64,000 bases of DNA from Candidatus Desulfofervidus auxilii (GTDB lineage Bacteria; Desulfobacterota; Desulfofervidia; Desulfofervidales; Desulfofervidaceae). The stretch is taken from contig NZ_CP013015.1 in the NCBI RefSeq assembly GCF_001577525.1, positions 2,406,656-2,470,655 of the forward strand, read 5' to 3'. Position 1 is the first letter of the stretch; each line of letters begins with the position of its first letter. Under the pieces are notes generated by a model. It was not told the DNA's origin, ran no database searches, and saw only the letters and a list, made by a program, of their open reading frames with translations. Made by a program: the position numbers and the translations under genes. Positions 12,689 through 27,302 of the stretch are shown in pieces.

Positions 12689-13240
12689 CTAAAAGATATC
12701 ATTCAATTTTATTTTTATCCCTTTAAGGACTAAAGATTCTAAGATATCTGTTTTTTTATAAATTTTTACTGTCTCAAGACCACTTTCTCCTAACGCCATG
12801 ACTTCAATCTCTTTCTTCTCAAGGTCTACTAACCAATACTCCTTTACTTCATATTTGCTATAAAGCTTTCTCTTTATGACCCTATCTCTATATTCAGAAG
12901 TAGGTGAGATAATCTCAACAATAAGGTCAGGTGCACCCTGAATATTTTTCTCTGTTATAATATTTAGTCTTTCTTTGGAGATAAACATAATATCTGGCTG
13001 AACTACATCTATCTCTGAAAGGACTACATCTAAAGGGGCAAGATAAACCTCTCCTATGCCTTTTTTGTCAACAAATTCACACAATCTTAAATATAAATTT
13101 CCTAAAACCATTTGATGGTGTGGCACTGGCGATGGAACCATATGAACCTCCCCATCAATAATCTCATACCTCTTGTCCTCGGGAAAGTGAAGATAATCTT
13201 CGTATGTGAACTTTATAGGCTTTTTCACTGCTGTATCCAT
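12689..13240 (-). CDS. Uma2 family putative nuclease, copy 1
   Basis: 183 residues, Uma2/DUF820 family. Conserved segments are FTYEDYLHFPEDKRYEIIDGEV at the start (shown as a family landmark), VQPDIMFIS near 96-104, and PDLIVEIISPTSEYRDR near 114-130, ending KEYWLVD. The PD...(E/D)xI layout is the degenerate PD-(D/E)XK fold of this family. Members are abundant in multicopy form in some genomes and their biological role is not settled. This copy and the one at 22436 differ at only about five residues (MALGESGL versus MSLKESGL, KLNDIF versus KLDEIF). The whole block from the gene to the ACGT repeat upstream is duplicated with an offset of 9747 bp. Confidence 0.9.
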   Translation of the reverse strand: MDTAVKKPIKFTYEDYLHFPEDKRYEIIDGEVHMVPSPVPHHQMVLGNLYLRLCEFVDKKGIGEVYLAPLDVVLSEIDVVQPDIMFISKERLNIITEKNIQGAPDLIVEIISPTSEYRDRVIKRKLYSKYEVKEYWLVDLEKKEIEVMALGESGLETVKIYKKTDILESLVLKGIKIKLNDIF

Positions 13241-13821: not shown

Positions 13822-14085
13822 AATTTTCTTAGACACTAATGTTTCATTTACGCCTTTGAATTTCCAAAATCCAATTCAAGGAAAATAATAGAGTTATTAA
13901 ATGAAGGAAAAATTGAGGCAGTTATTAGTGAAAGAGTGATTAAAGAAGTGCAAGCATATTTTTTAGTTTCTTTTGATAAAGATTTTAAGAAATTTAAAGA
14001 ATATAAAACACCAAAGATTTTTATTGAAGATATAGGGCTTATCCCTAACTTATACCTAATGAGGAAGAATTTTAAAAAACTCTAA
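13811..14085 (+). pseudogene. Broken PIN-domain (VapC-type) toxin
   Basis: The first frame reads MKLRIFLDTNVSFT with the PIN-domain start (Asp in LDTN). A net single-base frameshift near 13850 moves into the frame AFEFPKSNSRKIIELLNEG, continuing KIEAVISERVIKEVQAYF, then LVSFDKDFKKFKEYKTPKIF to the stop at 14085. The second frame therefore carries both the early helices and the C-terminal SFDKDF strand of a PIN domain. The central part, which should carry more acidic residues, is missing, so both a frameshift and an internal deletion have occurred. A functional RNase is unlikely. The upstream antitoxin is intact. Confidence 0.75.
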
Positions 14086-14117
14086 AAAGCATTAAGGCAG
14101 TGAAGACCTGACCCTAC

Positions 14118-14165
14118 TTCTTTTTACGTTCGCACGTTCTAACGTTTATACGTTTTTAACGTCTA
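14118..14165. repeat. ACGT-rich tandem octamer repeat, copy 2
   Basis: Same 8-base ACGT units as the copy at 13324. It directly follows (minus strand) the stop codon of the giant dockerin gene. Together with copy 1 it brackets the antitoxin/PIN remnant, about 0.8 kb, as direct repeats. Confidence 0.85.
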
Positions 14166-17100
14166 CTCCGTCGCACACCTTGGCCTAGTGCACCTTAATA
14201 CACATTTCCTGGCATCAAGCACTGTGATTGTTCCATCTCCATCAATATCACAATCTGGGCATTCAGTAGATGGTTGGTTTCTGTAAGTGAGTATAATGTC
14301 TATATCATCACGGTCTACATCGCTGTCGCAATCGAGGTCGCATAATAGACAAGTGGGAGCGCTGCTAACGCTAATCATCACATTATCAAAATCTTTCTTT
14401 TCACCGTCGAACACCTCTAGTCGCAAGATATAGGTGCCTGCTACATCCGGCCTGAATCTGGGGGTTACCGTATCAGCGTCGATAATATCGCCATTGGTTA
14501 AGATACTCTCATCGGGCAAGAAGACAAAGGTCCAGATGAATGAGAGTTCTTCCGGTCCATCATCTGGATCATTGCTGGATGTACCATCTAGAACAACTTC
14601 ATCACCCAGGCTTATATTCTTGTCTTCTCCTGCATTGGCGTTAGGTGGCACATTGCGATAAGAGGCAGTGACAACCATTTCATCGTCATCGCTGTCTTCC
14701 CCGTCATATACTCTAAGATTGAGCACATAGGTCCCCACAGCGTCGGGGATAAAGTTGGCCTGAACTTGATCGGCATCAATAATGTCACCGTCTTCCAAGG
14801 TACTTTTAGCTGGTAGTTCTTTGAATGTCCAGAGATAGGCTAAGAATCCGGGACCATCATCCGGGTCGTTACTCCCTCTGCCATTCAAGGTTACCCCGTT
14901 CCCAATATATGCAGTTTGATCTTCTCCAGCATAGGCATTGGGAGGAACATTCGGTATGGTGGCCCTGATTTCCACATAGTCAGGCTCACTTTCCAACCGC
15001 CCGTCACTTACTACCAGTTTGAAGACATAAATGCCATCCATATCCGGGGTAATGGATGGATTTGGGGTAGTCCTCCCCCAGATATCTAGGTCTGCCAGAG
15101 TGCTATTTGGCGGCTTACTCTCTAGACTCCACTCAAAGGTAATTATATCCCCATCCGGATCAAAAGAGTTGCTTGCATCAAGCGTTACTCCTGTGCCAGT
15201 TTTCATATTCTGATCTGGACCGGCATTGGCTACCGGTGGACAGTTTGGAGGTGGCGCTTCTCCTGCCCTTAATAGTGCAGTTGCGGAAGCATGAACTAAT
15301 GGATTACTTAGTGAGGTTACACCCACGGTGACAGTTCCTTCACCATAGGCATCCAGACTAGCATTCAGTAGAATTATGCCTGTCGCGAGTCCTGGTAGCC
15401 TGAAGGTAGATATCGTCTGTGTCGCCTGACCATACAGCCCATCGAAATTTGCCGTGACTGGTCCACTGATTTCTGTAACCTCAGCAGTGTAGGCATCCTC
15501 TGTGTTGCCGGTATTATGGACTGTGAGGAGAAAGGCAGCACTACCAGGTGCGGCAAGTTCCACTACGGCGGGGTCAAAGCTAACTCCTATTCCCTGGGTG
15601 GCCTCTATGATCACGTGAGCCGTAGCGCTGTCCGTAATTGCTGTGTTCCCACGGGAGGTAGCGATCGCAACAAGATCCAAAGCCCCGGGAAAGGCGAAAT
15701 CAATCGCGCCTATCGTTATAGTTACTTCCTGTGACGTGCCAGGGGCAAGCGTAACCGACTCAGTTTCGAGGGTTGAAATCACACCGGCCGGGCCGCCTAG
15801 CGTGAGATCAAAGGTATCTTCTACTTGGCCAGTGTTAATAACAGTTAGCTGGAAGGTGCTTCCAGCTACACCTGAAGCGGGATTTAGGACAACGTTTACC
15901 CCATTTTGGACCACTGTCACCATTCCACTGCCTTGGCCAGACACTGAGGTATCAGTCGTAGATACGGCTGTCACTGTAAAGACCTGGATGCCAGGCGGGG
16001 CACCCTGCGGTGGTGATACAGTTAAGAGGACTTCACGGAAGTTATTTATGCCAGGCGGCACCTCTACAACTTGTTGGTCAAGACTGCTGCTAAAGCCCGC
16101 TGGCGAGGCTACCGAAAGCGAGAAGTTGTCCGTCATGCTTCCTGTATTGGTTATGCGTACCACATATTCGGCTGAGGTAGCTTGCCCAGCGGTAGCTTGA
16201 CTGGGGGTTATACTAAGCACAACTCCTCGGGTGACACTCTCTACGTCTTCTCCCAGGAATGAACCTTCAAGGATTAGCGAACCATGCACAAAACCAGTGG
16301 GACATGTATCTGCTCTTGCAGTAACCACAAATCCATTTTCACTCTCAATGGCAGAGGGATCCGATCGAAGAGTCAGTACAATTTCTCCTGTACCATAGGC
16401 AGGGACAGCTACAGAGGGAACAATATCCACCCAATCCTGGGGCACCCCCTGAACGGATAGGTTATACGTTAGCGCTGACTCGGTGGGATTTTTGACTGTC
16501 AGTGTATATTCTGCGTTTCCACCTGGCAGCACGGTCTGGGTGTGTGGATCCAGGGTGAGGATCTGCTCACTGAGTACTTCCATTGCTGGCAACTCAATCT
16601 GTCCAGAATCACCAGAAGGCATCGTAAAATCAATCGTGGCCCCCAACGTTATGTCTCTAGCTTCACCTGGCTGCATGTTATTCACAGTGGATTGCCACGT
16701 AAGGGTTTTGCTAGTGCCTTCCGCACCAAGTAAAAATTCCCATACCAGGGTATCAAATTCGTCACCTGAAATGATTTCTACAGGTTCGATATTAAAGGAA
16801 CCTGGCACCAGCTCCAAGCCGTTACCTTTGGGAATTATTACTTGTGCTGTCACTCTTGCGCCGATCATTCCACTTAGGTCATAAATACTCAATCCGGCGC
16901 TGCTTGGCACGAAGAGCAGATTGTCCTGGATGTTAACTTCCTCTATTATTCCTGGAACGGCTAAAGTGATAAAACTCAAGTTCTGGGGATCGGTTGCATC
17001 TACCACCATCAAGACCGGTTCATCATCAAGAGCGATTCCGCTCACTGCAAAAAAGCCGTCCCCCATGGGGGTGACAGTAGTATCGCTGCGGGTGTCAACT

Positions 17101-20100
17101 GTCGTATCTGTGTTATCTATGCCTGCTCTCCCATTTGTTTCAATTGTTCCTATGACAACCGGGTTTAATGGATCTGTAATGTCAAGTGCTGTCAGGGTTA
17201 CATTACCTGATAAACGCCAAAGAGGATAGAGGGGAGGAAGTATGCGCCCTGACCAGCCGCCGGTATTACCCACCACAAGGGCCAGATTCCCTTGAATGCC
17301 TATACCGGTGGCATGTACTGTGTTTGGTATCTGCACTTCCTTAAGAATCTCGAGACTTGCGGGATTCGACGTATCCACGACCAAGATACGTCCATACCCG
17401 GATGGATTGCTGCCCTCAGATGTAGTAGTAGCGACCAGGATGATATTGTCGTTGACTGCGGCGGCCTGCCATACATTGAAGTCTCCACTTCCCATCTCTA
17501 ATTGTCCAGTATCCGGATCTACTCGAGTACCGAAGAGAGCATCAAGAAAACGAGGATTCTCCATGTCATTAAAATCAAACGAGAGGAAGTCGCCAACTTG
17601 GTCAGTAAGAATTACCCAAAGCCAGAAATAAACCCCCCTCATTGTCACAAAGCCTGTATTTCCATTAAAAAAGAGATCTCCAAGAAAATGAAAGTTTGCG
17701 CTTGTATTGGTAATGAGGGTGGGCTGGAGTGGGTCGGCTAAATCATAAACAAGGATCTGAAAGGGATCCGAGCCAAATTGTTGTTGCCACATCACAACAA
17801 GATGATTGTCTATAATGCGACAAAAAGATTTGAACACACCACTAATATTGATCAAGTTATCGGCAAAGGTGTTGACAATCTGGGCGTCCGTAGGATCGCT
17901 GATGTCGATGATAGCAATATTTTCCGAGCCACAGACATAAGCCAAGTTGTCTTTGATAGCCACGCTGGCAGCGATGCCATCCGTATCTACTTGGTCTAGA
18001 AGGACAAATTGCTGATCCGAAAAATCGACCAAGCTACTAATATCTAAAGTGGTAGTAACTGTCTCCTGGCAAGGTGGCACGGCCTCGGGAGTCACTGCCA
18101 TTTCAGCTGTTATTGGTAAACCGATGAGCAGGCTCCCTTGACCTACTGCACCAGGTATGGGTTGGCCATCCAGATCAGCAACGGTAACTTCCAGAGTATG
18201 GCTTCCAGATTCAAAATCTGTAGTGTCGAGAATACCAAGATCTACGGTGTCCAAGGATGAAAGTGCAGTAAGTTCTACTTCTTCTGGCACAGAGGTAAAG
18301 ATAATCGCACCCATTGGGTTCTTAACCACGTAAGATACCCGAACGAGACGATTTTTGTTGACGGCATTAAGTATGCGCGCCAAGATGTGTACCTGATCAC
18401 CAGGGGATGCAAAGGTGGGGTCCGCCTTAACCTCAACGACTTCGACCAATTCCTGTCTAACCGTAAAAGCTCCATGGGCTGTACGGGCAATATCAGGCCT
18501 ATCCGCAATAGAAACAGTGACCGAAAAGTCAAAGGCCTGTAATTCCTCTTCAGCCTGTGTAATGGTTACATAGGCATTGGGCCCATCAGTACTTGGTATG
18601 GATTCGCCAGGGGCAAGCGATACAGACGTGCGATTCAGCTCGCATGTTACATTTGGCGGCATCGTTGACATGCTGAGGTTGTAAGTTGTAGTCTGGCTCC
18701 CTGTATTGCGGATGTATATGTCAAAGCGGGTGGGAGTTTCAGGTAACGCCACTGCACTGTTCGGGGAAAGGGCTACTTCAAATGGATATGCTTCTACTGT
18801 TGACAGGATATTAACAAGGCTTAAAAATAAGTTGCTCAGATTATTCAGGGCATCTTGAATCTCTTCTGGTGTGGTTGCATCAGCAATGTCATCTCTCAAT
18901 GCAGTGAAATCGTCTTTATAAGGAGCCAGGGCAGGACCATTTAGTTGTTCAATGAGACTCTTAAGTAAGGCCACGGTCCTGCCTTGAAAATATTCGTTGC
19001 CCATCTCTTGGCCAAGCTCGGTCATCACCATTCCTAGTTCGTTGAGGGTGCTTCCCAGTTGCGGCCTTCCTGCCTGTCCAGCGGCGAGCGCAGCATCTGC
19101 AGCAGATTGGGCTGCGGGGGCAACCACCTGGATACAAACCCGTGTACTTACTGTCTTTGTTTGGCCGGAAGAGGTGGCAAATGTGGCTCTGATAGTTGCC
19201 CAGAGCAGTGAGTTCAATGGAGCAGTCTCGCTTATATCGAGAGTGAGATCCTGCGAAATGGATTGGCCTATACCGAGTGAGAGGGGGCTTGTAAGGCCGC
19301 TGAGCACCAAACCTGCAGAGGTATCTACTTCTAAGGCAATACCATCAGAAGGTACGTTGCCTACTGAAGTCAGGGTAAGAGTAAGTGGCAACGAACTGCC
19401 AGGAGTTGCGCTGGTGAAGGGCAAATCAGTGGCTATTGTGATCTGGTCCAGCTCTGGCATTACAAATTGTGCATTTGCCACTTTTGTGATAGTTGGATCG
19501 GTAGTACTTGTGACGTTGATGGCAAAGGAAAAAAAGCTTCCAGGAGGATCAATTCCTTCGAGCGGATAAAGTGAAATGCCAACCTCTGCTGTCTCCCCTG
19601 GCGGCACGGTTACTTCCGATAAGCTGAGGCAGGTGGTAAATCCAGGGGGTTCTTGTGATATGGCCACAGAAAAGGTGTCTTCAGTGGGGCCAGTGTTCTG
19701 TATCTGAACCCTGAAGGTGGAAGGGATGTCCACACCGTCCAATTGCACGCTCAGCAGTTCATCCTGAACAATTTGCACATTGACGCCAGGCTGCTCCCCT
19801 GGGGTTACAGGGGGCAGGTCACCTGGAATGCCAAACATGATGCCATTTGCAGGAGGATCCACAAGGTGTAAGACCTGGAAAAGTGAACCGGTAAGATTGC
19901 ATGCCAGCATCAAGTCTGGCAGTGCAACCAATGCAGCATAGCGTTTCTTCGCATCCTTATCTAATGCGGCCTCCAATGCTTCCAATACCCTTTTCAACAT
20001 GGTGTTGGCTATAGTAGAGATCTCTTGTTTAAAAGCAGTTTCGTCCATGGAAAGCTCAGCAACGAGATTCATGATATGAGGCACTCTTTCTAAGATCGTA

Positions 20101-22109
20101 TATGTAACGCTAGTTGCCTGCTTTAAGAGCTTTGCTGTCTCACATGCCACCTCTGCAAAATGGGTCCATTCTGTCAGCGCCGTGTGTTCTCCATTTTCTG
20201 CAACATCCTTGATAACACCTGTATCAGGATCGTATTCAAACCAGCTCACGGTTTGCATCTCGCCCACCTGAACATTGCCCTGAGGGACGACTATAAGCTT
20301 TCCTTGGGAGATTGCCTGCTGGATACGGATTCTTGCTTCCTCTGAGAGATTAAGCATATTGACAAGACTTGCATTTTCCTTACCAAGCGTGACTAGGTAA
20401 GCCCCTTGGTTCTCAGCAGCCTCAAACACCCTTGCTATGCTATAAGGTTCTGTATAAAAATCCTCATCATGGACATCCAATATCTCCACAACCTCACTCT
20501 CAACCGTGCTTTCCAGTAGCCCTATTACAAGATAAAAGCGAGACAACATATCCTTGACCTGTCCGGTAGAAGGCACCGCTCTTATATTGTCTTTGCAAAG
20601 GTCTATGGACAACTGGAGCGACACTCTATCGTCCACGTTAGTGGCCCTGTTGGAGGCCACTATGATCCGAGGGGTGTCAAGGTATGACTTGACAAGGCCT
20701 ATGGTTGTCATTTGCTGGACGACAATATGTGACAGGTTCGTAAATATCAGGGCAGATAGCTGGGTTAAGATCCTCATAATATTTTGGTCTACCTCAAGCA
20801 TTCTGTCCAAGAGTTCCTGCTCTGTTGCGTCTAAGGACTCAGGGTCGGCCTCTTGAAGGAGTTCAAACAGATCTGCAGCATAATTCTGGAGGTCTTGGCC
20901 TTCATTCAATAGCACACAGAGAGCCTCTGGATTGGACAGGCCAGATTCCACACTGATGGTTACTGTATCAAAAGGACTAATGGCGGGTTGTTGGCCGGAT
21001 GTCATGCTCAGCTCTATAGGACTCCCGTTTTGGCGATTGACAAATCCGATCCGGTCAATCAATGTCCTTTCGTATGTCTCTGTCCCTCTGCCTGGGGTGA
21101 TTACGTCGATCTCCAGGAACAACCCAGTCAAGAACTGGCTTCCCATCGGGAAATTGGTCAAGTATTCCTGATAGTCCTCACCACGGATGATAGAATCATC
21201 CGAGATGTCACCGTCGATCTGTCCGATGAGGATATAAGGAGAATACGTATGAGTGACTGTTCCAAAGACCAGAGAAGGGGGAGAGAAAGAGTTCACGAAG
21301 TGACCGATTGACAACGGCCGCCCAACTAGCTCCACGGTATTAAAGGTTACATTTAGAGGAGTCTTGATCTCAAGGGGTATGTTAGGGAAACTGCTCCTAA
21401 GCTCTGCTTTGAGCCGTACAGTTACCTTGTGCCGCAAATTATCCGGCACCTCGGCAAACCTACTTTCAGCAGTTGCAAATGTGTTGCCAATCTCTGCTCC
21501 CGTGAATGTCGGGTCTGCAGCTCTGAAACCACTGCCATCATCAAATTCCACCCAGTAGTGCTCTTTCGTCTCTTCAAGAAGACGGGGATCATTGGCTGGA
21601 TCAGCCCGTTCGGCATCTGCTGGCACACACCCTACAACTCGCAGTATCGGCGGAAACATCGAGAGGATCAATTGCTGGGCCTGGGCTGTATCAAGCGTAC
21701 CATGTACATACCGTGCTGGTATACCGGATGTACGGAGGAGTGCAACTAATAAACTAGCTTGATCCAGTGCATTACCCGCTTTGGTCCACAGAGTGCCCCG
21801 GGCACCTCGCAGGGATCCTTTATAAGATTCGTAACCAATCTCATCGCGGACAAACTGAAAGATCCGTGTGGGATCATGACCCAGCTCTGCAGCCTTATCC
21901 AGCACATAAGGATCTGTTGTATCAGCATCAGGAGTAGGCCTGAGTAGATCGTCCTCTGGCTCTTGTGCGTAAGCCGCGGCCGGCCCAAACTCCAAGGAAA
22001 TCTCAGACATAGGCAGGTAATGTGCCGTGGGTAATATAGTTTGATAGAAAAGTAGAAAAGCGACTAAAAGGCATAAATTCTTAAACCAAATGGCTTTCGT
22101 CAACTTCAT
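14163..22109 (-). CDS. Giant secreted multidomain protein with C-terminal dockerin
   Basis: 2648 residues. A signal or anchor segment (FKNLCLLVAFLLFYQTILP) ends near AAAYAQEPEDD at about residue 50. Residues 75-205 are transglutaminase-like (GNALDQASLLVALLRTSGIP, then EHYWVEF with His184 and ADPTF with Asp199), but the usual Cys after GN is Ala114. A helical part (about 440-790) and many Ig-like/CARDB/NEW3-type modules (VPPGETAEVGISLYP, SLAPGESIPS) follow. Residues ~1370-1750 contain LVIVD-type propeller repeats (AIIDISDPTD, LVVDTSNPASL). More Ig-like modules, three PKD domains (PVANAGPDQ, NAYAGEDQ, NANAGEDK; about 2290-2580) and a type I dockerin (DLDCDSDVDRDDIDIIL, DIDGDGTITVLDARK) ending CTRPRCATE complete it. 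Sampled GC is near 50 percent against about a third in flanking genes, suggesting transfer. A c-di-GMP-I riboswitch lies upstream. Extracellular scaffold or adhesin role is inferred. Confidence 0.9.
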   Translation of the reverse strand: MKLTKAIWFKNLCLLVAFLLFYQTILPTAHYLPMSEISLEFGPAAAYAQEPEDDLLRPTPDADTTDPYVLDKAAELGHDPTRIFQFVRDEIGYESYKGSLRGARGTLWTKAGNALDQASLLVALLRTSGIPARYVHGTLDTAQAQQLILSMFPPILRVVGCVPADAERADPANDPRLLEETKEHYWVEFDDGSGFRAADPTFTGAEIGNTFATAESRFAEVPDNLRHKVTVRLKAELRSSFPNIPLEIKTPLNVTFNTVELVGRPLSIGHFVNSFSPPSLVFGTVTHTYSPYILIGQIDGDISDDSIIRGEDYQEYLTNFPMGSQFLTGLFLEIDVITPGRGTETYERTLIDRIGFVNRQNGSPIELSMTSGQQPAISPFDTVTISVESGLSNPEALCVLLNEGQDLQNYAADLFELLQEADPESLDATEQELLDRMLEVDQNIMRILTQLSALIFTNLSHIVVQQMTTIGLVKSYLDTPRIIVASNRATNVDDRVSLQLSIDLCKDNIRAVPSTGQVKDMLSRFYLVIGLLESTVESEVVEILDVHDEDFYTEPYSIARVFEAAENQGAYLVTLGKENASLVNMLNLSEEARIRIQQAISQGKLIVVPQGNVQVGEMQTVSWFEYDPDTGVIKDVAENGEHTALTEWTHFAEVACETAKLLKQATSVTYTILERVPHIMNLVAELSMDETAFKQEISTIANTMLKRVLEALEAALDKDAKKRYAALVALPDLMLACNLTGSLFQVLHLVDPPANGIMFGIPGDLPPVTPGEQPGVNVQIVQDELLSVQLDGVDIPSTFRVQIQNTGPTEDTFSVAISQEPPGFTTCLSLSEVTVPPGETAEVGISLYPLEGIDPPGSFFSFAINVTSTTDPTITKVANAQFVMPELDQITIATDLPFTSATPGSSLPLTLTLTSVGNVPSDGIALEVDTSAGLVLSGLTSPLSLGIGQSISQDLTLDISETAPLNSLLWATIRATFATSSGQTKTVSTRVCIQVVAPAAQSAADAALAAGQAGRPQLGSTLNELGMVMTELGQEMGNEYFQGRTVALLKSLIEQLNGPALAPYKDDFTALRDDIADATTPEEIQDALNNLSNLFLSLVNILSTVEAYPFEVALSPNSAVALPETPTRFDIYIRNTGSQTTTYNLSMSTMPPNVTCELNRTSVSLAPGESIPSTDGPNAYVTITQAEEELQAFDFSVTVSIADRPDIARTAHGAFTVRQELVEVVEVKADPTFASPGDQVHILARILNAVNKNRLVRVSYVVKNPMGAIIFTSVPEEVELTALSSLDTVDLGILDTTDFESGSHTLEVTVADLDGQPIPGAVGQGSLLIGLPITAEMAVTPEAVPPCQETVTTTLDISSLVDFSDQQFVLLDQVDTDGIAASVAIKDNLAYVCGSENIAIIDISDPTDAQIVNTFADNLINISGVFKSFCRIIDNHLVVMWQQQFGSDPFQILVYDLADPLQPTLITNTSANFHFLGDLFFNGNTGFVTMRGVYFWLWVILTDQVGDFLSFDFNDMENPRFLDALFGTRVDPDTGQLEMGSGDFNVWQAAAVNDNIILVATTTSEGSNPSGYGRILVVDTSNPASLEILKEVQIPNTVHATGIGIQGNLALVVGNTGGWSGRILPPLYPLWRLSGNVTLTALDITDPLNPVVIGTIETNGRAGIDNTDTTVDTRSDTTVTPMGDGFFAVSGIALDDEPVLMVVDATDPQNLSFITLAVPGIIEEVNIQDNLLFVPSSAGLSIYDLSGMIGARVTAQVIIPKGNGLELVPGSFNIEPVEIISGDEFDTLVWEFLLGAEGTSKTLTWQSTVNNMQPGEARDITLGATIDFTMPSGDSGQIELPAMEVLSEQILTLDPHTQTVLPGGNAEYTLTVKNPTESALTYNLSVQGVPQDWVDIVPSVAVPAYGTGEIVLTLRSDPSAIESENGFVVTARADTCPTGFVHGSLILEGSFLGEDVESVTRGVVLSITPSQATAGQATSAEYVVRITNTGSMTDNFSLSVASPAGFSSSLDQQVVEVPPGINNFREVLLTVSPPQGAPPGIQVFTVTAVSTTDTSVSGQGSGMVTVVQNGVNVVLNPASGVAGSTFQLTVINTGQVEDTFDLTLGGPAGVISTLETESVTLAPGTSQEVTITIGAIDFAFPGALDLVAIATSRGNTAITDSATAHVIIEATQGIGVSFDPAVVELAAPGSAAFLLTVHNTGNTEDAYTAEVTEISGPVTANFDGLYGQATQTISTFRLPGLATGIILLNASLDAYGEGTVTVGVTSLSNPLVHASATALLRAGEAPPPNCPPVANAGPDQNMKTGTGVTLDASNSFDPDGDIITFEWSLESKPPNSTLADLDIWGRTTPNPSITPDMDGIYVFKLVVSDGRLESEPDYVEIRATIPNVPPNAYAGEDQTAYIGNGVTLNGRGSNDPDDGPGFLAYLWTFKELPAKSTLEDGDIIDADQVQANFIPDAVGTYVLNLRVYDGEDSDDDEMVVTASYRNVPPNANAGEDKNISLGDEVVLDGTSSNDPDDGPEELSFIWTFVFLPDESILTNGDIIDADTVTPRFRPDVAGTYILRLEVFDGEKKDFDNVMISVSSAPTCLLCDLDCDSDVDRDDIDIILTYRNQPSTECPDCDIDGDGTITVLDARKCVLRCTRPRCATE

Positions 22110-22435: not shown

Positions 22436-22987
22436 CTAAAATATTTCATCTAATTTTATTTTTATCCCTTTAAGGACTAAAGATTCTAAGATATCTGTTT
22501 TTTTATAAATTTTTACTGTCTCAAGACCACTTTCTTTTAAACTCATAACTTCAATCTCTTTCTTCTCAAGGTCTACTAACCAATACTCCTTTACTTCATA
22601 TTTGCTATAAAGCTTTCTCTTTATGACCCTATCTCTATATTCAGAAGTAGGTGAGATAATCTCAACAATAAGGTCAGGTGCACCCTGAATATTTTTCTCT
22701 GTTATAATATTTAGTCTTTCTTTGGAGATAAACATAATATCTGGCTGAACTACATCTATCTCTGAAAGGACTACATCTAAAGGGGCAAGATAAACCTCTC
22801 CTATGCCTTTTTTGTCAACAAATTCACACAATCTTAAATATAAATTTCCTAAAACCATTTGATGGTGTGGCACTGGCGATGGAACCATATGAACCTCCCC
22901 ATCAATAATCTCATACCTCTTGTCCTCGGGAAAGTGAAGATAATCTTCGTATGTGAACTTTATAGGCTTTTTCACTGCTGTATCCAT
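22436..22987 (-). CDS. Uma2 family putative nuclease, copy 2
   Basis: 183 residues, near-identical in protein and DNA to the gene at 12689-13240, with the same Uma2/DUF820 motifs (VQPDIMFIS, PDLIVEIISPTSEYRDR, KEYWLVD). It lies downstream, on the same strand, of the propeller-dockerin gene and is separated from it by about 80 bp plus the ACGT repeat. The first copy lies in the same relation to the giant dockerin gene. So each intact dockerin gene is followed by ACGT repeat then Uma2. Whether this reflects one duplication event or a mobile unit cannot be settled here. Confidence 0.9.
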   Translation of the reverse strand: MDTAVKKPIKFTYEDYLHFPEDKRYEIIDGEVHMVPSPVPHHQMVLGNLYLRLCEFVDKKGIGEVYLAPLDVVLSEIDVVQPDIMFISKERLNIITEKNIQGAPDLIVEIISPTSEYRDRVIKRKLYSKYEVKEYWLVDLEKKEIEVMSLKESGLETVKIYKKTDILESLVLKGIKIKLDEIF

Positions 22988-23069: not shown

Positions 23070-23117
23070 TTCTTTTTACGTTCACACGTTCTAACGTTTA
23101 CACGTTTTTAACGTTTA
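23070..23117. repeat. ACGT-rich tandem octamer repeat, copy 3
   Basis: Same unit as the copies at 13324, 14118 and 27192. It overlaps the stop codon end of the propeller-dockerin gene, joining that gene to the duplicated Uma2 block. Confidence 0.85.
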
Positions 23118-25940
23118 CTCACAGGCACACCTTGGCCTAGTACAAAGAAGCACTAATTTCCTTGCATCAAGCACAGTGATTACTCCATCGCCATCTATAT
23201 CACACTTTGGGCATGCACTTGCAGGCTGGTTGCGGTAGGTAAGAAGGATGTTTAGGTCATCTAAATCGACATCACCATCGCCATCTAGGTCGCCCTGAAC
23301 AGTTACTTTTCTAACACCCAATTGAAAAATAGAGAAATGGGTTACATCAATCATAATCAACATGTTCTCTTCATCAACTGTTTTTGGGCCTTCTACCAAT
23401 TCCCAAGTTAAAGTAGTTGTGTTAAAAGTATAAACATCTAATTCCTGTGGGTCACTCACACCTGCATTTTCTAAGTCCTCCTCTGTGTATGGGAGTTTTA
23501 TAGTTACAGGTTTATTAAACACAAGGCCTTCTGGCCCAAAATGTACTGGCAAACCAATGCCTATAATATCTTCGGGAAATGGAGGGATTTCCTCTACAAG
23601 CTCACTGATGGCAATAATGGTATTTTCTGATAGGGCATCTGCAGGGATTTCAACTTGGGCCCCTAGAATCTCACTTGATGTATCTGTCACCAAGACAGTT
23701 CCACCATCAGAGCCAACGGTTTCCCATCCAACTGTTTTTAGTGAATAGGGAAATGATGTAAGGTTACTATCAAGCTTTGATACAAAAACATCCAGCCCAC
23801 CATTATAGCTTTCATCATAAGCACCAGGGGTTGTGGGATAGTCAGGAGACCGTGTCCTACCAGTTATATATACATTTCCACCTCCATCAAGGGCAATGGA
23901 ATAGCCATAATCCGAGTTACTTCCACCACCAATGAATGTGCTTGCCAAAAGATTGCTTAAACTACTATCAAGCTTTGATACAAAAACATCATAATAATCA
24001 TTATCATAATCAGTATCATTATAGCTTTCATTATAAGCACCAGGGGTTGTGGGATAGTCAGGAGAATTTGTCCAACCAGTTACATATACATTTCCACCTC
24101 CATCAAGGGCAATGGAATAGCCATAATCAGAAGAACTTCCACCAATGAATGTGCTTGCCAAAAGATTGCTTAAACTACTATCAAGCTTTGATACAAAAAC
24201 ATCACCATTATTATGGCTTTCATCATAAGCACCAGGAGTTGTGGGATAGTTAGAAGAGGATGTCCCACCAGTTATATATACATTTCCACCTCCGTCAAGG
24301 GCAATGGAATGGCCACAATCATGATAAATTCCACCAATGAATGTGCTTGCCAAAAGATTGCTTAAACTACTATCAAGCTTTGATACAAAAACATCATAAT
24401 AACCTCTACCATTATGGCTTCTATCATAAGCACCTGAAGTTGTGGGATAGTCAGAAGAGGATGTATAACCAGTTACATATACATTTCCACCTCCATCAAG
24501 GGCAATGGAATAGCCATAATCACCAATAATTCCACCAATGAATGTGCTTGCCAAAAGACTGCTTAAACTACTATCAAGCTTTGATACAAAAACATCATCA
24601 TAACCATTATGGCTTTCATCATAAGCACCTGAAGTTGTGGGATAGTTAGAAGATTGTGTCCCACCAGTTATATATACATTTCCACCTCCATCAAGGGCAA
24701 TGGAATAGCCATAATCATTAAAAATTCCACCAATGAATGTGCTTGCCAAAAGATTGCTTAAACTACTATCAAGCTTTGATACAAAAACATCCAAAGAACC
24801 ATTATAGCTTTCATCATAAGCACCAGGAGTTGTGGGATAGCCAGGAGATGCCCCACCAGTTACATATACATTTCCATCTCCATCAATGGCAATGGAATAG
24901 ACATAATCAGAATAACTTCCACCAATGAATGTGCTTGCCAAAAGACTGCTTAAACTACTGTCAAGCTTTGATACAAAAACATCATAATCCCCCCCATTAT
25001 AGCTTTCATCATAAGCACCTGAGGTTGTGGGATAGTCAGAAGACCGTGTGCTACCAGTTATATATACATTTCCACCTCCATCAAGGGCAATGGAAAGGCC
25101 ATAATAAAAACAATCATCATCACTTCCACCAATGAATGTGCTTGCCAGAAGTGGGTCTATTATAAGCGTCTCTTTTTTGTCATAACTTCCTACCTTAAAG
25201 CCATAAACATATTGCGGATTTGAAAGTAAGGTATAGGCAGCAGCTACCTCAACCCTCTTGCCATTAATCTCCTGATATGCCACTGGCTTTGTAAATTTTA
25301 TAACCCCAAGACCTGTCTCTACCTCAAGCTCTCCATTTTCATTTACCCTTAAACTTTTAGCCCCTTCAATTTTTATTTTAATGCTTTCTGGATTTGCACC
25401 TGCCTTTACATAAAATAGCTTTTCTACATTTTTTCCATAGGCCTTAACCTTTAGCTCTATTCTCTTATATACTTCTCCAAGACTTACCAAATTGTAAGTT
25501 GAAATATCCCTTTTCCAATTTGAAGGGTCCTTTCCCTTGAAGTAACTTACCTTGGTTACTGCCTCTTCTTTTCCTTTTACATTAGAGATAGAAGCCCCAA
25601 CAAGGCTTTCTTTTATTACCCAACCTTTCACCTTCTCTTTTTTCTCAAATTTTGGAAGGGAATAAACCAGCTTTCCATCCTTGGTAACAAAGACAGCCCC
25701 TCCAAAGGTCTTTGCATAATACTTTACACTTTCACCTTTTATTTGACCTTTGTTTTCTATAAATGGAATCTTAAGTGTATAAGCTTTGTTTAGAATCTCT
25801 TTTTTATCTTTTTCTTTTACAACCGACCCTATTGCTGAATAATTAAAGATAAATAAAAGTATGAAAGCTGTAATAGTTGCTTTTTTATAACGTTTTACTA
25901 ACATGGCCAATTTTTCACCCAGCCAAATAATTGACTTCAT
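23115..25940 (-). CDS. Secreted SBBP seven-blade propeller protein with C-terminal dockerin
   Basis: 941 residues. A membrane/signal segment lies at about 20-40 (ATITAFILLFIFNYSAIGS). Residues ~50-260 match the domain that commonly precedes SBBP repeats (IPFIENKGQIKGE, VFVTKDGKLVYSLP). From ~262 to ~720 there are seven SBBP repeats, each with LASTFIGG, YGYSIALDGGGNVYITG, YPTT(S/P)GAYDES and DVFVSKLDSSL, enough for one closed beta-propeller. A ZU5-like domain follows (VTDTSSEILGAQVEIPADAL; HFSIFQLG). Then comes a type I dockerin with two calcium loops (DLDGDGDVDLDDLNILL, DIDGDGVITVLDARKLVLL) and the tail CTRPRCACE. It lies 68 bp downstream of the cohesin-PEP-CTERM gene, so the two are probably one operon and their products natural partners. 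An internal Met at residue 13 is an alternative start. Confidence 0.9.
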   Translation of the reverse strand: MKSIIWLGEKLAMLVKRYKKATITAFILLFIFNYSAIGSVVKEKDKKEILNKAYTLKIPFIENKGQIKGESVKYYAKTFGGAVFVTKDGKLVYSLPKFEKKEKVKGWVIKESLVGASISNVKGKEEAVTKVSYFKGKDPSNWKRDISTYNLVSLGEVYKRIELKVKAYGKNVEKLFYVKAGANPESIKIKIEGAKSLRVNENGELEVETGLGVIKFTKPVAYQEINGKRVEVAAAYTLLSNPQYVYGFKVGSYDKKETLIIDPLLASTFIGGSDDDCFYYGLSIALDGGGNVYITGSTRSSDYPTTSGAYDESYNGGDYDVFVSKLDSSLSSLLASTFIGGSYSDYVYSIAIDGDGNVYVTGGASPGYPTTPGAYDESYNGSLDVFVSKLDSSLSNLLASTFIGGIFNDYGYSIALDGGGNVYITGGTQSSNYPTTSGAYDESHNGYDDVFVSKLDSSLSSLLASTFIGGIIGDYGYSIALDGGGNVYVTGYTSSSDYPTTSGAYDRSHNGRGYYDVFVSKLDSSLSNLLASTFIGGIYHDCGHSIALDGGGNVYITGGTSSSNYPTTPGAYDESHNNGDVFVSKLDSSLSNLLASTFIGGSSSDYGYSIALDGGGNVYVTGWTNSPDYPTTPGAYNESYNDTDYDNDYYDVFVSKLDSSLSNLLASTFIGGGSNSDYGYSIALDGGGNVYITGRTRSPDYPTTPGAYDESYNGGLDVFVSKLDSNLTSFPYSLKTVGWETVGSDGGTVLVTDTSSEILGAQVEIPADALSENTIIAISELVEEIPPFPEDIIGIGLPVHFGPEGLVFNKPVTIKLPYTEEDLENAGVSDPQELDVYTFNTTTLTWELVEGPKTVDEENMLIMIDVTHFSIFQLGVRKVTVQGDLDGDGDVDLDDLNILLTYRNQPASACPKCDIDGDGVITVLDARKLVLLCTRPRCACE
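23760..25150. repeat. Seven coding tandem repeats (SBBP blades)
   Basis: DNA repeats of about 185-215 bp inside the propeller gene. Stretches such as the one reading ccaccaatgaatgtgcttgc recur almost unchanged in each unit, while the segment encoding the variable loop differs. Such near-identity at DNA level implies recent duplication or gene conversion between blades and makes copy number change likely. Confidence 0.85.
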
Positions 25941-26008
25941 AGCATTCCTCCTTAAACTAGTTTATAATGTTTTGTTCAAGAATCTTTCGTCTCTGCTAAA
26001 ATACGCAT

Positions 26009-26623
26009 TTAGCCAAACTTCTTCCTTCTCAAAATCCAAACTCCACTTAAGCCAGACCCAAGCAAGATTAATGTGGTAGGTACAGGAACAGCAGAAATGT
26101 TACCACTTTGCGAATCAAAAGATAAGCAATTTCCATTTTCATCGGCAAGCCTACTCGCAAAAAACGGAGGATCTGGGTCAACAATCTCTAAAGGACTTGT
26201 GCCAACACTTAAAGTATCAAAGGTCAAAGTGGCTAGGACAAAGCTAGGTTTTTGTAAATCATTTAAATCCCAAGGTAGATTATAAGATAATCCAAAAAGA
26301 TATTCAACATCAGAGGAATAAGATGAATAATCATACAAACTTCCCCAACCTGAGACATCCAGTTGATCACCTAAGGTTGGGTCACCAAAGGAGACATCAG
26401 AAAGGGCTAAAATTGTTGGGTCATACTCTATAAACAAATCAAAACCACCCAAAGAAGGAGATTCTCCATCTCCTAAACCTGAAATCACCAAATTAACACT
26501 CACTGATTCGCCAACTGGCACAGTTTGAGAACCAGGCTCAAAACCAATGGTAGCAGCAAAGGCACTAAGGCTAAAAAACACTACCAACCCTAAAACCACT
26601 GCTAAAAACAATACCTTTTTCAT
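26009..26623 (-). CDS. Cohesin-domain protein with PEP-CTERM sorting tail
   Basis: 204 residues. The signal peptide is MKKVLFLAVVLGLVVFFSLS ending near AFAA at 24. Residues ~25-165 are cohesin-like: an opening strand GFEPGSQTVPVGESVSVNLV, then LGGFDLFIEYDPTILALSDV and PSFVLATLTFDTL, the usual order of cohesin strands. Residues 179-204 form a PEP-CTERM tail: VPVP in place of VPEP, hydrophobic TTLILLGSGLSGVWIL and RRKK, the exosortase recognition layout. Such tails direct cleavage and surface or matrix attachment by an exosortase, which is not in this window. An AGGAGG ribosome site precedes the ATG. With a dockerin gene next downstream, a surface anchor for dockerin proteins is inferred. The cohesin call rests on pattern, not on a profile search. 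Confidence 0.8.
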   Translation of the reverse strand: MKKVLFLAVVLGLVVFFSLSAFAATIGFEPGSQTVPVGESVSVNLVISGLGDGESPSLGGFDLFIEYDPTILALSDVSFGDPTLGDQLDVSGWGSLYDYSSYSSDVEYLFGLSYNLPWDLNDLQKPSFVLATLTFDTLSVGTSPLEIVDPDPPFFASRLADENGNCLSFDSQSGNISAVPVPTTLILLGSGLSGVWILRRKKFG

Positions 26624-26822: not shown

Positions 26823-26838
26823 ATCAATATCCGTGCCA
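26823..26838 (-). promoter_or_regulatory. Sigma-54-like promoter upstream of the cohesin gene
   Basis: Minus-strand TGGCACGGATATTGAT: a perfect TGGCAC -24 element and TTGAT at the -12 position with correct GG-N10-G spacing. The -12 dinucleotide is GA rather than the consensus GC, so it is imperfect. It lies about 200 bp before the gene and about 55-145 bp downstream of three copies of the 18-bp motif, the usual geometry of an enhancer-binding protein and sigma-54. Confidence 0.45.
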
Positions 26839-26891: not shown

Positions 26892-26998
26892 TTGTAAAGT
26901 TTACTGACACCAAAATTGGCTCACAGGCCAAAAATGGCATCTAGCAAGGATTTTAGCTGTAAAGTATTGTGACACCTAAATTGTAAAGTTTTCTGACA
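26892..26998 (-). promoter_or_regulatory. Three direct copies of an 18-bp motif (possible activator sites)
   Basis: Plus-strand copies are TTGTAAAGTTTACTGACA (26892-26909), CTGTAAAGTATTGTGACA (26957-26974) and TTGTAAAGTTTTCTGACA (26981-26998), all in the same orientation. The invariant parts are TGTAAAGT and TGACA. They lie between the HTH remnant and the sigma-54-like promoter and look like an upstream activator array. Confidence 0.65.
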
Positions 26999-27160
26999 TT
27001 AGAAAGCTTTTATCTTTATGCCATATTTTCTAATCAATTCATAAACACTGGCTCGGCTAATACCAAGTTCAGTAGCAGTGTGAGTAATATTATAATTATT
27101 TTTCTCTTCAAAGGCCTTAATAAGGGAAGGGAATCTGCTTTTGTATCTCTCAATAGTGGA
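26999..27160 (-). pseudogene. C-terminal remnant with a Fis-type HTH (sigma-54 activator-like)
   Basis: The minus strand from 27160 reads STIERYKSRFPSLIKAFEEK, continuing NNYNITHTATELGISRASVY and ELIRKYGIKIKAF before a TAA at 26999. The NIT-TATELGISR-SVYELIRKYGI pattern is the Fis-type helix-turn-helix at the C-terminus of NtrC-family activators, including PrsR-like regulators of exopolysaccharide/PEP-CTERM systems. No ATPase or receiver domain precedes it: a stop lies within 15 bases upstream in the same frame. Nothing of the kind is found in neighbouring frames. A short stand-alone HTH protein is a less likely alternative, as there is no start codon. Confidence 0.7.
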
Positions 27161-27191
27161 CAGTTGATTTTTTTATCTTATCACCTTTAGG

Positions 27192-27233
27192 TTACGTTCG
27201 CACGTTCTAACGTTTACACGTTTTTAACGTCTA
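27192..27233. repeat. ACGT-rich tandem octamer repeat, copy 4
   Basis: Same repeat as copies 1-3, again adjoining a dockerin 3' end (27231-27302), although the rest of that dockerin gene is absent. Confidence 0.85.
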
Positions 27234-27302
27234 CTCCGTCGCACACCTTGGCCTTGTACAAAGAAGCACTAATTTCCTTGCATCAAGCACAGTGATTACT
27301 CC
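27231..27302 (-). pseudogene. Orphan dockerin C-terminus
   Basis: The minus strand reads GVITVLDARKLVLLCTRPRC followed by ATE and TAG, matching the last 23 residues of the dockerins at 14163 and 23115. Similarity stops sharply at 27302, within the second calcium loop, and the upstream sequence is the promoter of the plus-strand VWA gene. It is a third, truncated copy of the dockerin 3' end plus ACGT repeat, left by recombination. Confidence 0.85.

Follow-up and report, generated by a model that had tools for sequence, protein, structure and literature searches.

We have analyzed a window of 64,000 nucleotides from the genome of Candidatus Desulfofervidus auxilii (HotSeep-1; assembly of one contig, 2,540,211 bases), a sulfate reducer that is wired to methane- and alkane-eating archaea. 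The window contains a gene for a small cohesin protein with a PEP-CTERM sorting tail, followed by two genes for large secreted proteins that end in dockerin domains. We consider it likely that these products form a surface assembly, in which an exosortase retains the cohesin and the cohesin captures the dockerin proteins. The cohesin and dockerin genes of such a system are found in the window, recur in a second cluster of the same genome, and are seen side by side in distantly related bacteria.

A cohesin protein with an exosortase-type tail

The cohesin gene (26009-26623, minus strand) encodes a protein of 204 amino acids with a signal peptide, one cohesin domain only and a PEP-CTERM tail, and its product is the proposed anchored socket. 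In a Pfam profile search the protein scored 22.5 bits against PF00963 (E = 1.4e-4), narrowly missing the curated cut-off of 24.1; a member of the same family at locus L063 (genome G252) clears it with 29.2, the whole domain being covered. A cohesin profile run against the sequences of the PDB gave a weak match only (5lxv_A, E = 0.11), and the identity of the domain was settled by its fold. The AlphaFold model (pLDDT, the predicted local distance difference test score, of 70) was used to search PDB structures, and all of the 50 best matches were cohesins (best E = 4.5e-9, template modeling score 0.72), the Archaeoglobus cohesin 2xdh among them.

The C terminus, VPVPTTLILLGSGLSGVWILRRKKFG, passes the NCBIfam model TIGR02595 with 23.9 against a cut-off of 16, and reaches 20.6 against 20.7 for PF07589. 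The features of a PEP-CTERM tail are present, i.e., a P-x-P motif, a hydrophobic helix and a basic end, and in the model the tail is a single helix followed by basic residues. An earlier sequence-only reading had placed a PEP-CTERM-tailed cohesin at this position. That assignment is upheld by the near-cut-off profile score, the structural model with its fold matches, and the score of the tail.

Two large secreted proteins with dockerin tails

The next gene (23115-25940, minus strand) begins 68 bp downstream of the cohesin gene and encodes a secreted protein of 941 amino acids, with seven SBBP propeller repeats, a ZU5 domain and a C-terminal CTRPRC dockerin. A second gene (14163-22109, minus strand), starting 1 kb further on, encodes a secreted protein of 2648 amino acids with a transglutaminase core, LVIVD and PKD domains and, again, a CTRPRC dockerin at the C terminus. 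Both are proposed cargo. Each ends in a two-loop, cysteine-bearing dockerin (...ITVLDARKLVLLCTRPRC), located at 23118-23306 and 14166-14354, respectively, on the minus strand. The first has two calcium loops, the second of which reads ITVLDAR, and cysteines in the motifs CPKC and CTRPRC. The second has no Pfam match of its own, and is homologous to the first. These are the two dockerin proteins of the sequence-only reading, which had also described the cargo as propeller and PKD proteins rather than glycosidases; this agrees with the SBBP, LVIVD and PKD domains found, and no glycosidases were seen in the cargo scans.

Taken alone, the tail of the 941-amino-acid protein scores 21.8 against PF00404, where the cut-off is 22.9; the best dockerin scores are 21.8 and 20.8, so that the cut-off is not reached, and a search of NCBIfam found no model for these tails. 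The predicted structure of the dockerin (pLDDT 76) matches the dockerin 2y3n_B with a root-mean-square deviation of 1.2, and the best matches, and most of the top ones, are dockerins; their E values exceed 0.001, as is usual with a domain of this small size. When 16 dockerin tails were aligned, two loop-helix repeats were present and the acidic positions of the calcium loops were kept. The second loop and helix (ITVLDAR) are nearly invariant while positions 15-16 in loop 1 vary, which suggests an asymmetric dockerin that would use its second half. The CPxC and CTRPRC cysteine pairs could form disulfides.

Clusters and exosortases in the genome

A dockerin query of 63 amino acids was used to search the HotSeep-1 genome for CTRPRC dockerins. 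Five intact tails and one remnant were found, all within two clusters, and in each of these a PEP-CTERM cohesin comes first. The three further intact tails, for which the sequence-only reading had proposed a search, all lie in a second cluster (locus L023, C1:2088000-2107500) under a cohesin that is 77% identical to that of the window and scores 21.5 against TIGR02595. After this cohesin come a dockerin protein of the carboxypeptidase-regulatory-like/ZU5 type and a Uma2 gene, then a dockerin protein of the fn3/Ig-like type and a second Uma2 gene, and last a papain-family protein and a dockerin protein with DUF333.

A scan of the genome contig with the window cohesin protein gave no matches. 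The cohesin search found three cohesins in the genome, each with a single domain. The third, of type B (L024:4427-5032), passes PF00963 with 30.7 and scores 17.5 against TIGR02595. It stands at the head of a series of proteins that carry a dockerin-like tail of another kind, FAADFGRTDC; of ten matches to this tail in the genome, eight fall within this cluster (C1:596637-605307). Thus every cohesin found carries a PEP-CTERM tail and heads a dockerin cluster. At L093:427-12299 (C1:593427-605299) the third cohesin precedes about six secreted proteins, including DUF7901 and beta-helix proteins, and their FAADFGRTDC tails occur mostly in two copies, as a second, parallel pairing.

The genome contains two exosortases, with PF09721 scores of 238 and 221 bits against a cut-off of 25.7, so that the enzyme on which the sequence-only reading depended is present. 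One of these shares its locus with PrsR, EpsB2 and EpsI.

A promoter copied from the exosortase locus

The two CTRPRC cohesin genes share an upstream stretch of approximately 260 bp (92% identity), which was copied from the 3' end of a response-regulator gene and the intergenic region that follows it. The original is found at the exosortase/exopolysaccharide locus (L026), where the intergenic region precedes a PEP-CTERM gene. There the intact regulator is TIGR02915 (PrsR; 598.7 against 502.6), and downstream of it lie EpsB2 (TIGR03013), the exosortase and EpsI. The segment carrying the end of prsR and the promoter has therefore been duplicated.

All elements of the copy in the window are on the minus strand. 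The 3' remnant of prsR, the PEP-CTERM response-regulator gene (KNNYNITHTATELGISRASVYELIRKYGIKIKAF, 26999-27103), is upstream of the cohesin. Three perfect copies of the motif TGTCAN5CTTTACA lie within 26893-26998 (at 26982-26998, 26958-26974 and 26893-26909). There are nine such motifs in the genome, three each at the window cluster, the second cluster and the prsR/exosortase locus. A sigma-54-like -24/-12 site, TGGCACGGATATTGAT, occupies 26823-26838 and agrees with the consensus at 10 of 11 positions. The triple motif was sought at the locus of the type-B cohesin and is absent there, so the promoter link is limited to the two CTRPRC clusters. In Aquincola, RpoN and probably PrsK/PrsR are used for a PEP-CTERM gene (PMC9850573). 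Taken with this precedent, the copied segment and its -24/-12-like site make it likely that the CTRPRC cohesin operons are co-regulated with the PEP-CTERM/exopolysaccharide system.

Further upstream in the window is the remnant of another dockerin gene, comprising 23 codons (GVITVLDARKLVLLCTRPRCATE) and a stop (27231-27302, minus strand); together, the dockerin and prsR remnants (26999-27302) mark the joints of past duplications. Genes of the Uma2 family are found at 12689-13240 and 22436-22987 of the window, at L023:8468-9019 and 13942-14496, and at L026:206-757. In both clusters they stand between dockerin genes, and at L026 the gene adjoins prsR. That at 22436-22987 (minus strand) separates the two dockerin genes of the window and, like the two remnants and the promoter, was not part of the sequence-only reading; its role in the system is doubtful, and the Uma2 genes may have travelled along with the duplicated segments.

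The pair in other genomes

We searched 395 genomes of the phylum with a cohesin profile (A2), from which the PEP-CTERM tail had been left out, and a dockerin profile (A1). Cohesins were found in 10 genomes and dockerins in 13, with both in nine (Fisher 1.2e-14). In the tenth cohesin genome, G300, an adjoining multicopper-oxidase gene ends in a dockerin that passes Pfam (PF00404 30.2), and counting this one all 10 cohesin-bearing genomes have a dockerin. A separate dockerin scan of named genomes added loci in which the cohesin profile matches the adjacent gene, in Desulfohalobiaceae, Desulfobacula, Burkholderiales (two pairs), Roseateles and Paraglaciecola.

With these named-genome loci included, cohesin and dockerin genes lie next to each other in 14 of 15 genomes, where about 0.02 would be expected by chance, the genomes not being independent trials because of shared descent. 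The exception is G006, where cohesin and dockerins are on different contigs. The gene order varies. The cohesin comes first in the HotSeep-1 window and in Paraglaciecola, the dockerin in most others, and in G269 and G289 the order is cohesin-papain-dockerin. The PEP-CTERM tail formed no part of the search profile, yet 14 of the 18 cohesins pass a curated PEP-CTERM cut-off, two more being slightly under and two weak. Of 14 pair-bearing genomes scanned for exosortase (PF09721), 12 gave a match (one of them weak), G300 standing outside this count. A socket-plug pairing that recurs in distant Gram-negative bacteria points to a system of surface assembly different from the cellulosome.

Three loci deserve separate description. 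In Paraglaciecola (L077:1825-7464) the dockerin is N-terminal, following the signal peptide of a PKD-rich protein of 1879 amino acids, and the cohesin gene overlaps the start of its gene. In G238, a genome of another family that is 68% complete, there are two dockerin tails (C67:3025-5671; L032, L044) that are almost the same as the window's. No cohesin was found in this incomplete genome, and the tails fit a recent transfer between lineages. Finally, G001, of the same family as HotSeep-1, encodes a protein combining a cohesin-like domain (below the Pfam cut-off) with a Pfam-passing dockerin (L094:7336-8085), directly preceding a PEP-CTERM protein whose sequence is weakly cohesin-like; the dockerin neighbors are C25-peptidase, DUF7901 and beta-helix proteins. 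The two-domain protein is a possible adaptor in a chain of adaptors.

A proposed mechanism and its alternatives

In the mechanism that we propose, the small cohesin protein would be exported, and its PEP-CTERM tail recognized and removed by the exosortase of the genome. The protein would then be held in the envelope or the exopolysaccharide layer. The calcium-loop dockerins of the larger secreted proteins would plug into it, as suggested by adjacency and co-occurrence. This cargo would comprise the propeller and PKD/transglutaminase proteins of the window and, in the second cluster, the carboxypeptidase-regulatory-like, fn3/Ig-like and DUF333 proteins. The cargo proteins themselves show no anchor that we could see. 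One small anchor would therefore display several cargo proteins, and expression of the operon, driven by the promoter segment duplicated from the prsR/exosortase locus, would start when the PEP-CTERM/exopolysaccharide system is turned on, presumably through PrsR. Of the exosortase-anchored complex first put forward from the sequence, the domains, the tails, the exosortases and the adjacency of the genes are borne out, and the copied promoter can be added, while the complex itself remains a proposal. Several observations weigh against it. In Pfam, the cohesin and dockerins of the window score slightly under their cut-offs, four dockerin-positive genomes have no cohesin, the cohesin tails at L077 and L082 are below the recognition cut-off, and of the pair-bearing draft genomes two have no PF09721 match and one more has a weak match.

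Binding might instead occur between species, with HotSeep-1 cohesins holding dockerins of the archaeal partner, or the reverse, and so helping to build the consortium. The genomes of the anaerobic methanotrophic archaea (ANME) groups ANME-1 and ANME-2a encode many cohesin and dockerin domains, for which a role in cell contact has been proposed (PMC5244752; PMC9012536), and HotSeep-1 lives in consortia, its cohesin and dockerin genes being expressed and tied to syntrophy (PMC10553843). Against this, the adjacent pair is also found in the genomes of Burkholderiales, Roseateles, Paraglaciecola and Desulfobacula, and genes placed side by side in one genome point most simply to binding within a single cell. 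We know of no archaeal partner for those organisms. We regard docking between species as improbable, but it is compatible with the proposed assembly; that HotSeep-1 and its archaeal partners have a cohesin-dockerin language in common, in which exosortase-anchored cohesins and archaeal dockerins (or the reverse) physically join the two kinds of cell in alkane-oxidizing consortia, is a speculation to which we would give equally little weight.

It is likewise unlikely that there is no binding between the two domains, the dockerin-like tail being a calcium-stabilized module for sorting or stability and the cohesin-like protein another PEP-CTERM beta-sandwich protein. Cohesin folds are generic beta-sandwiches, the window domains score below the Pfam cut-offs, and the dockerin tail is usually at the extreme C terminus. 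Yet the best fold matches are cohesins without exception, and co-occurrence and adjacency are far above chance while the gene order varies. Moreover, the Pfam-passing dockerin of the G300 multicopper oxidase adjoins a cohesin, and the Paraglaciecola dockerin, placed just past the signal peptide, disfavors a C-terminal sorting tag.

Somewhat less probable again is that the cohesin does bind dockerins but is a simple inner-membrane protein held by its hydrophobic tail, the exosortase being uninvolved. The modeled tail, one helix and then basic residues, would suit this, as would the drafts in which PF09721 is unmatched or weak. It fits poorly with the exosortase in 12 of the 14 pair-bearing genomes, and with the promoter of both CTRPRC cohesin operons, copied from the prsR/exosortase/exopolysaccharide locus. 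A cellulosome can be rejected, there being no multi-cohesin scaffoldin among the three single cohesins of the genome and no glycosidase domain in the cargo scanned.

Relationship to known systems

If the exosortase-sorted assembly is correct, Gram-negative exosortases are able to install docking sockets of a general kind, on which many cargo proteins are displayed. This would join two poorly understood systems, since to our knowledge the role of non-cellulosomal cohesin and dockerin modules is unknown, and so largely is the purpose of PEP-CTERM proteins beyond floc formation. The pairs in Desulfobacula-, Roseateles- and Paraglaciecola-like genomes might make the mechanism approachable in organisms easier to grow than HotSeep-1.

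The closest precedent concerns the same organism. Murali et al. (2023) described adjacent cohesin and dockerin genes in HotSeep-1, showed that they are expressed and suggested a role in syntrophy, and found genes of this type conserved in Seep-SRB1g and some Seep-SRB2, with transfer between clades likely (PMC10553843). This much is already known. The terms PEP-CTERM and exosortase are absent from that paper (0 occurrences), as is the copied prsR promoter, and its account does not include the pairing beyond syntrophic sulfate reducers. In the open-license papers searched, with subscription papers and preprints outside the scope, we found no mention of PEP-CTERM together with cohesin and dockerin, of a cohesin domain with PEP-CTERM, or of Desulfofervidus with PEP-CTERM. 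The exosortase link, the shared promoter and the pairing across Desulfobacterota and Beta- and Gammaproteobacteria thus appear to be new.

The likeness to the Clostridium cellulosome, drawn in the sequence-only reading, lies in the docking principle: the cohesin fold, a two-loop dockerin ending secreted proteins, and cargo genes clustered with that of the anchor. It does not extend to scaffoldin and glycosidases, neither of which was seen in the clusters, and here the anchors have single cohesins, an exosortase-type tail replaces SLH or sortase attachment, and the dockerins carry extra cysteines. The non-cellulosomal modules of Archaeoglobus and ANME similarly comprise cohesins and dockerins without cellulose degradation, but are described without a bacterial exosortase tail, whereas here a PEP-CTERM cohesin and a CTRPRC-type dockerin form a recurring unit. 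With the PEP-CTERM/exosortase system of Zoogloea and Aquincola flocs, with its PrsK/PrsR (PMC9850573), HotSeep-1 shares the tail, PrsR, EpsB2, the exosortase and a sigma-54-like promoter; the difference is that here the PEP-CTERM protein apparently serves other proteins as a docking socket.

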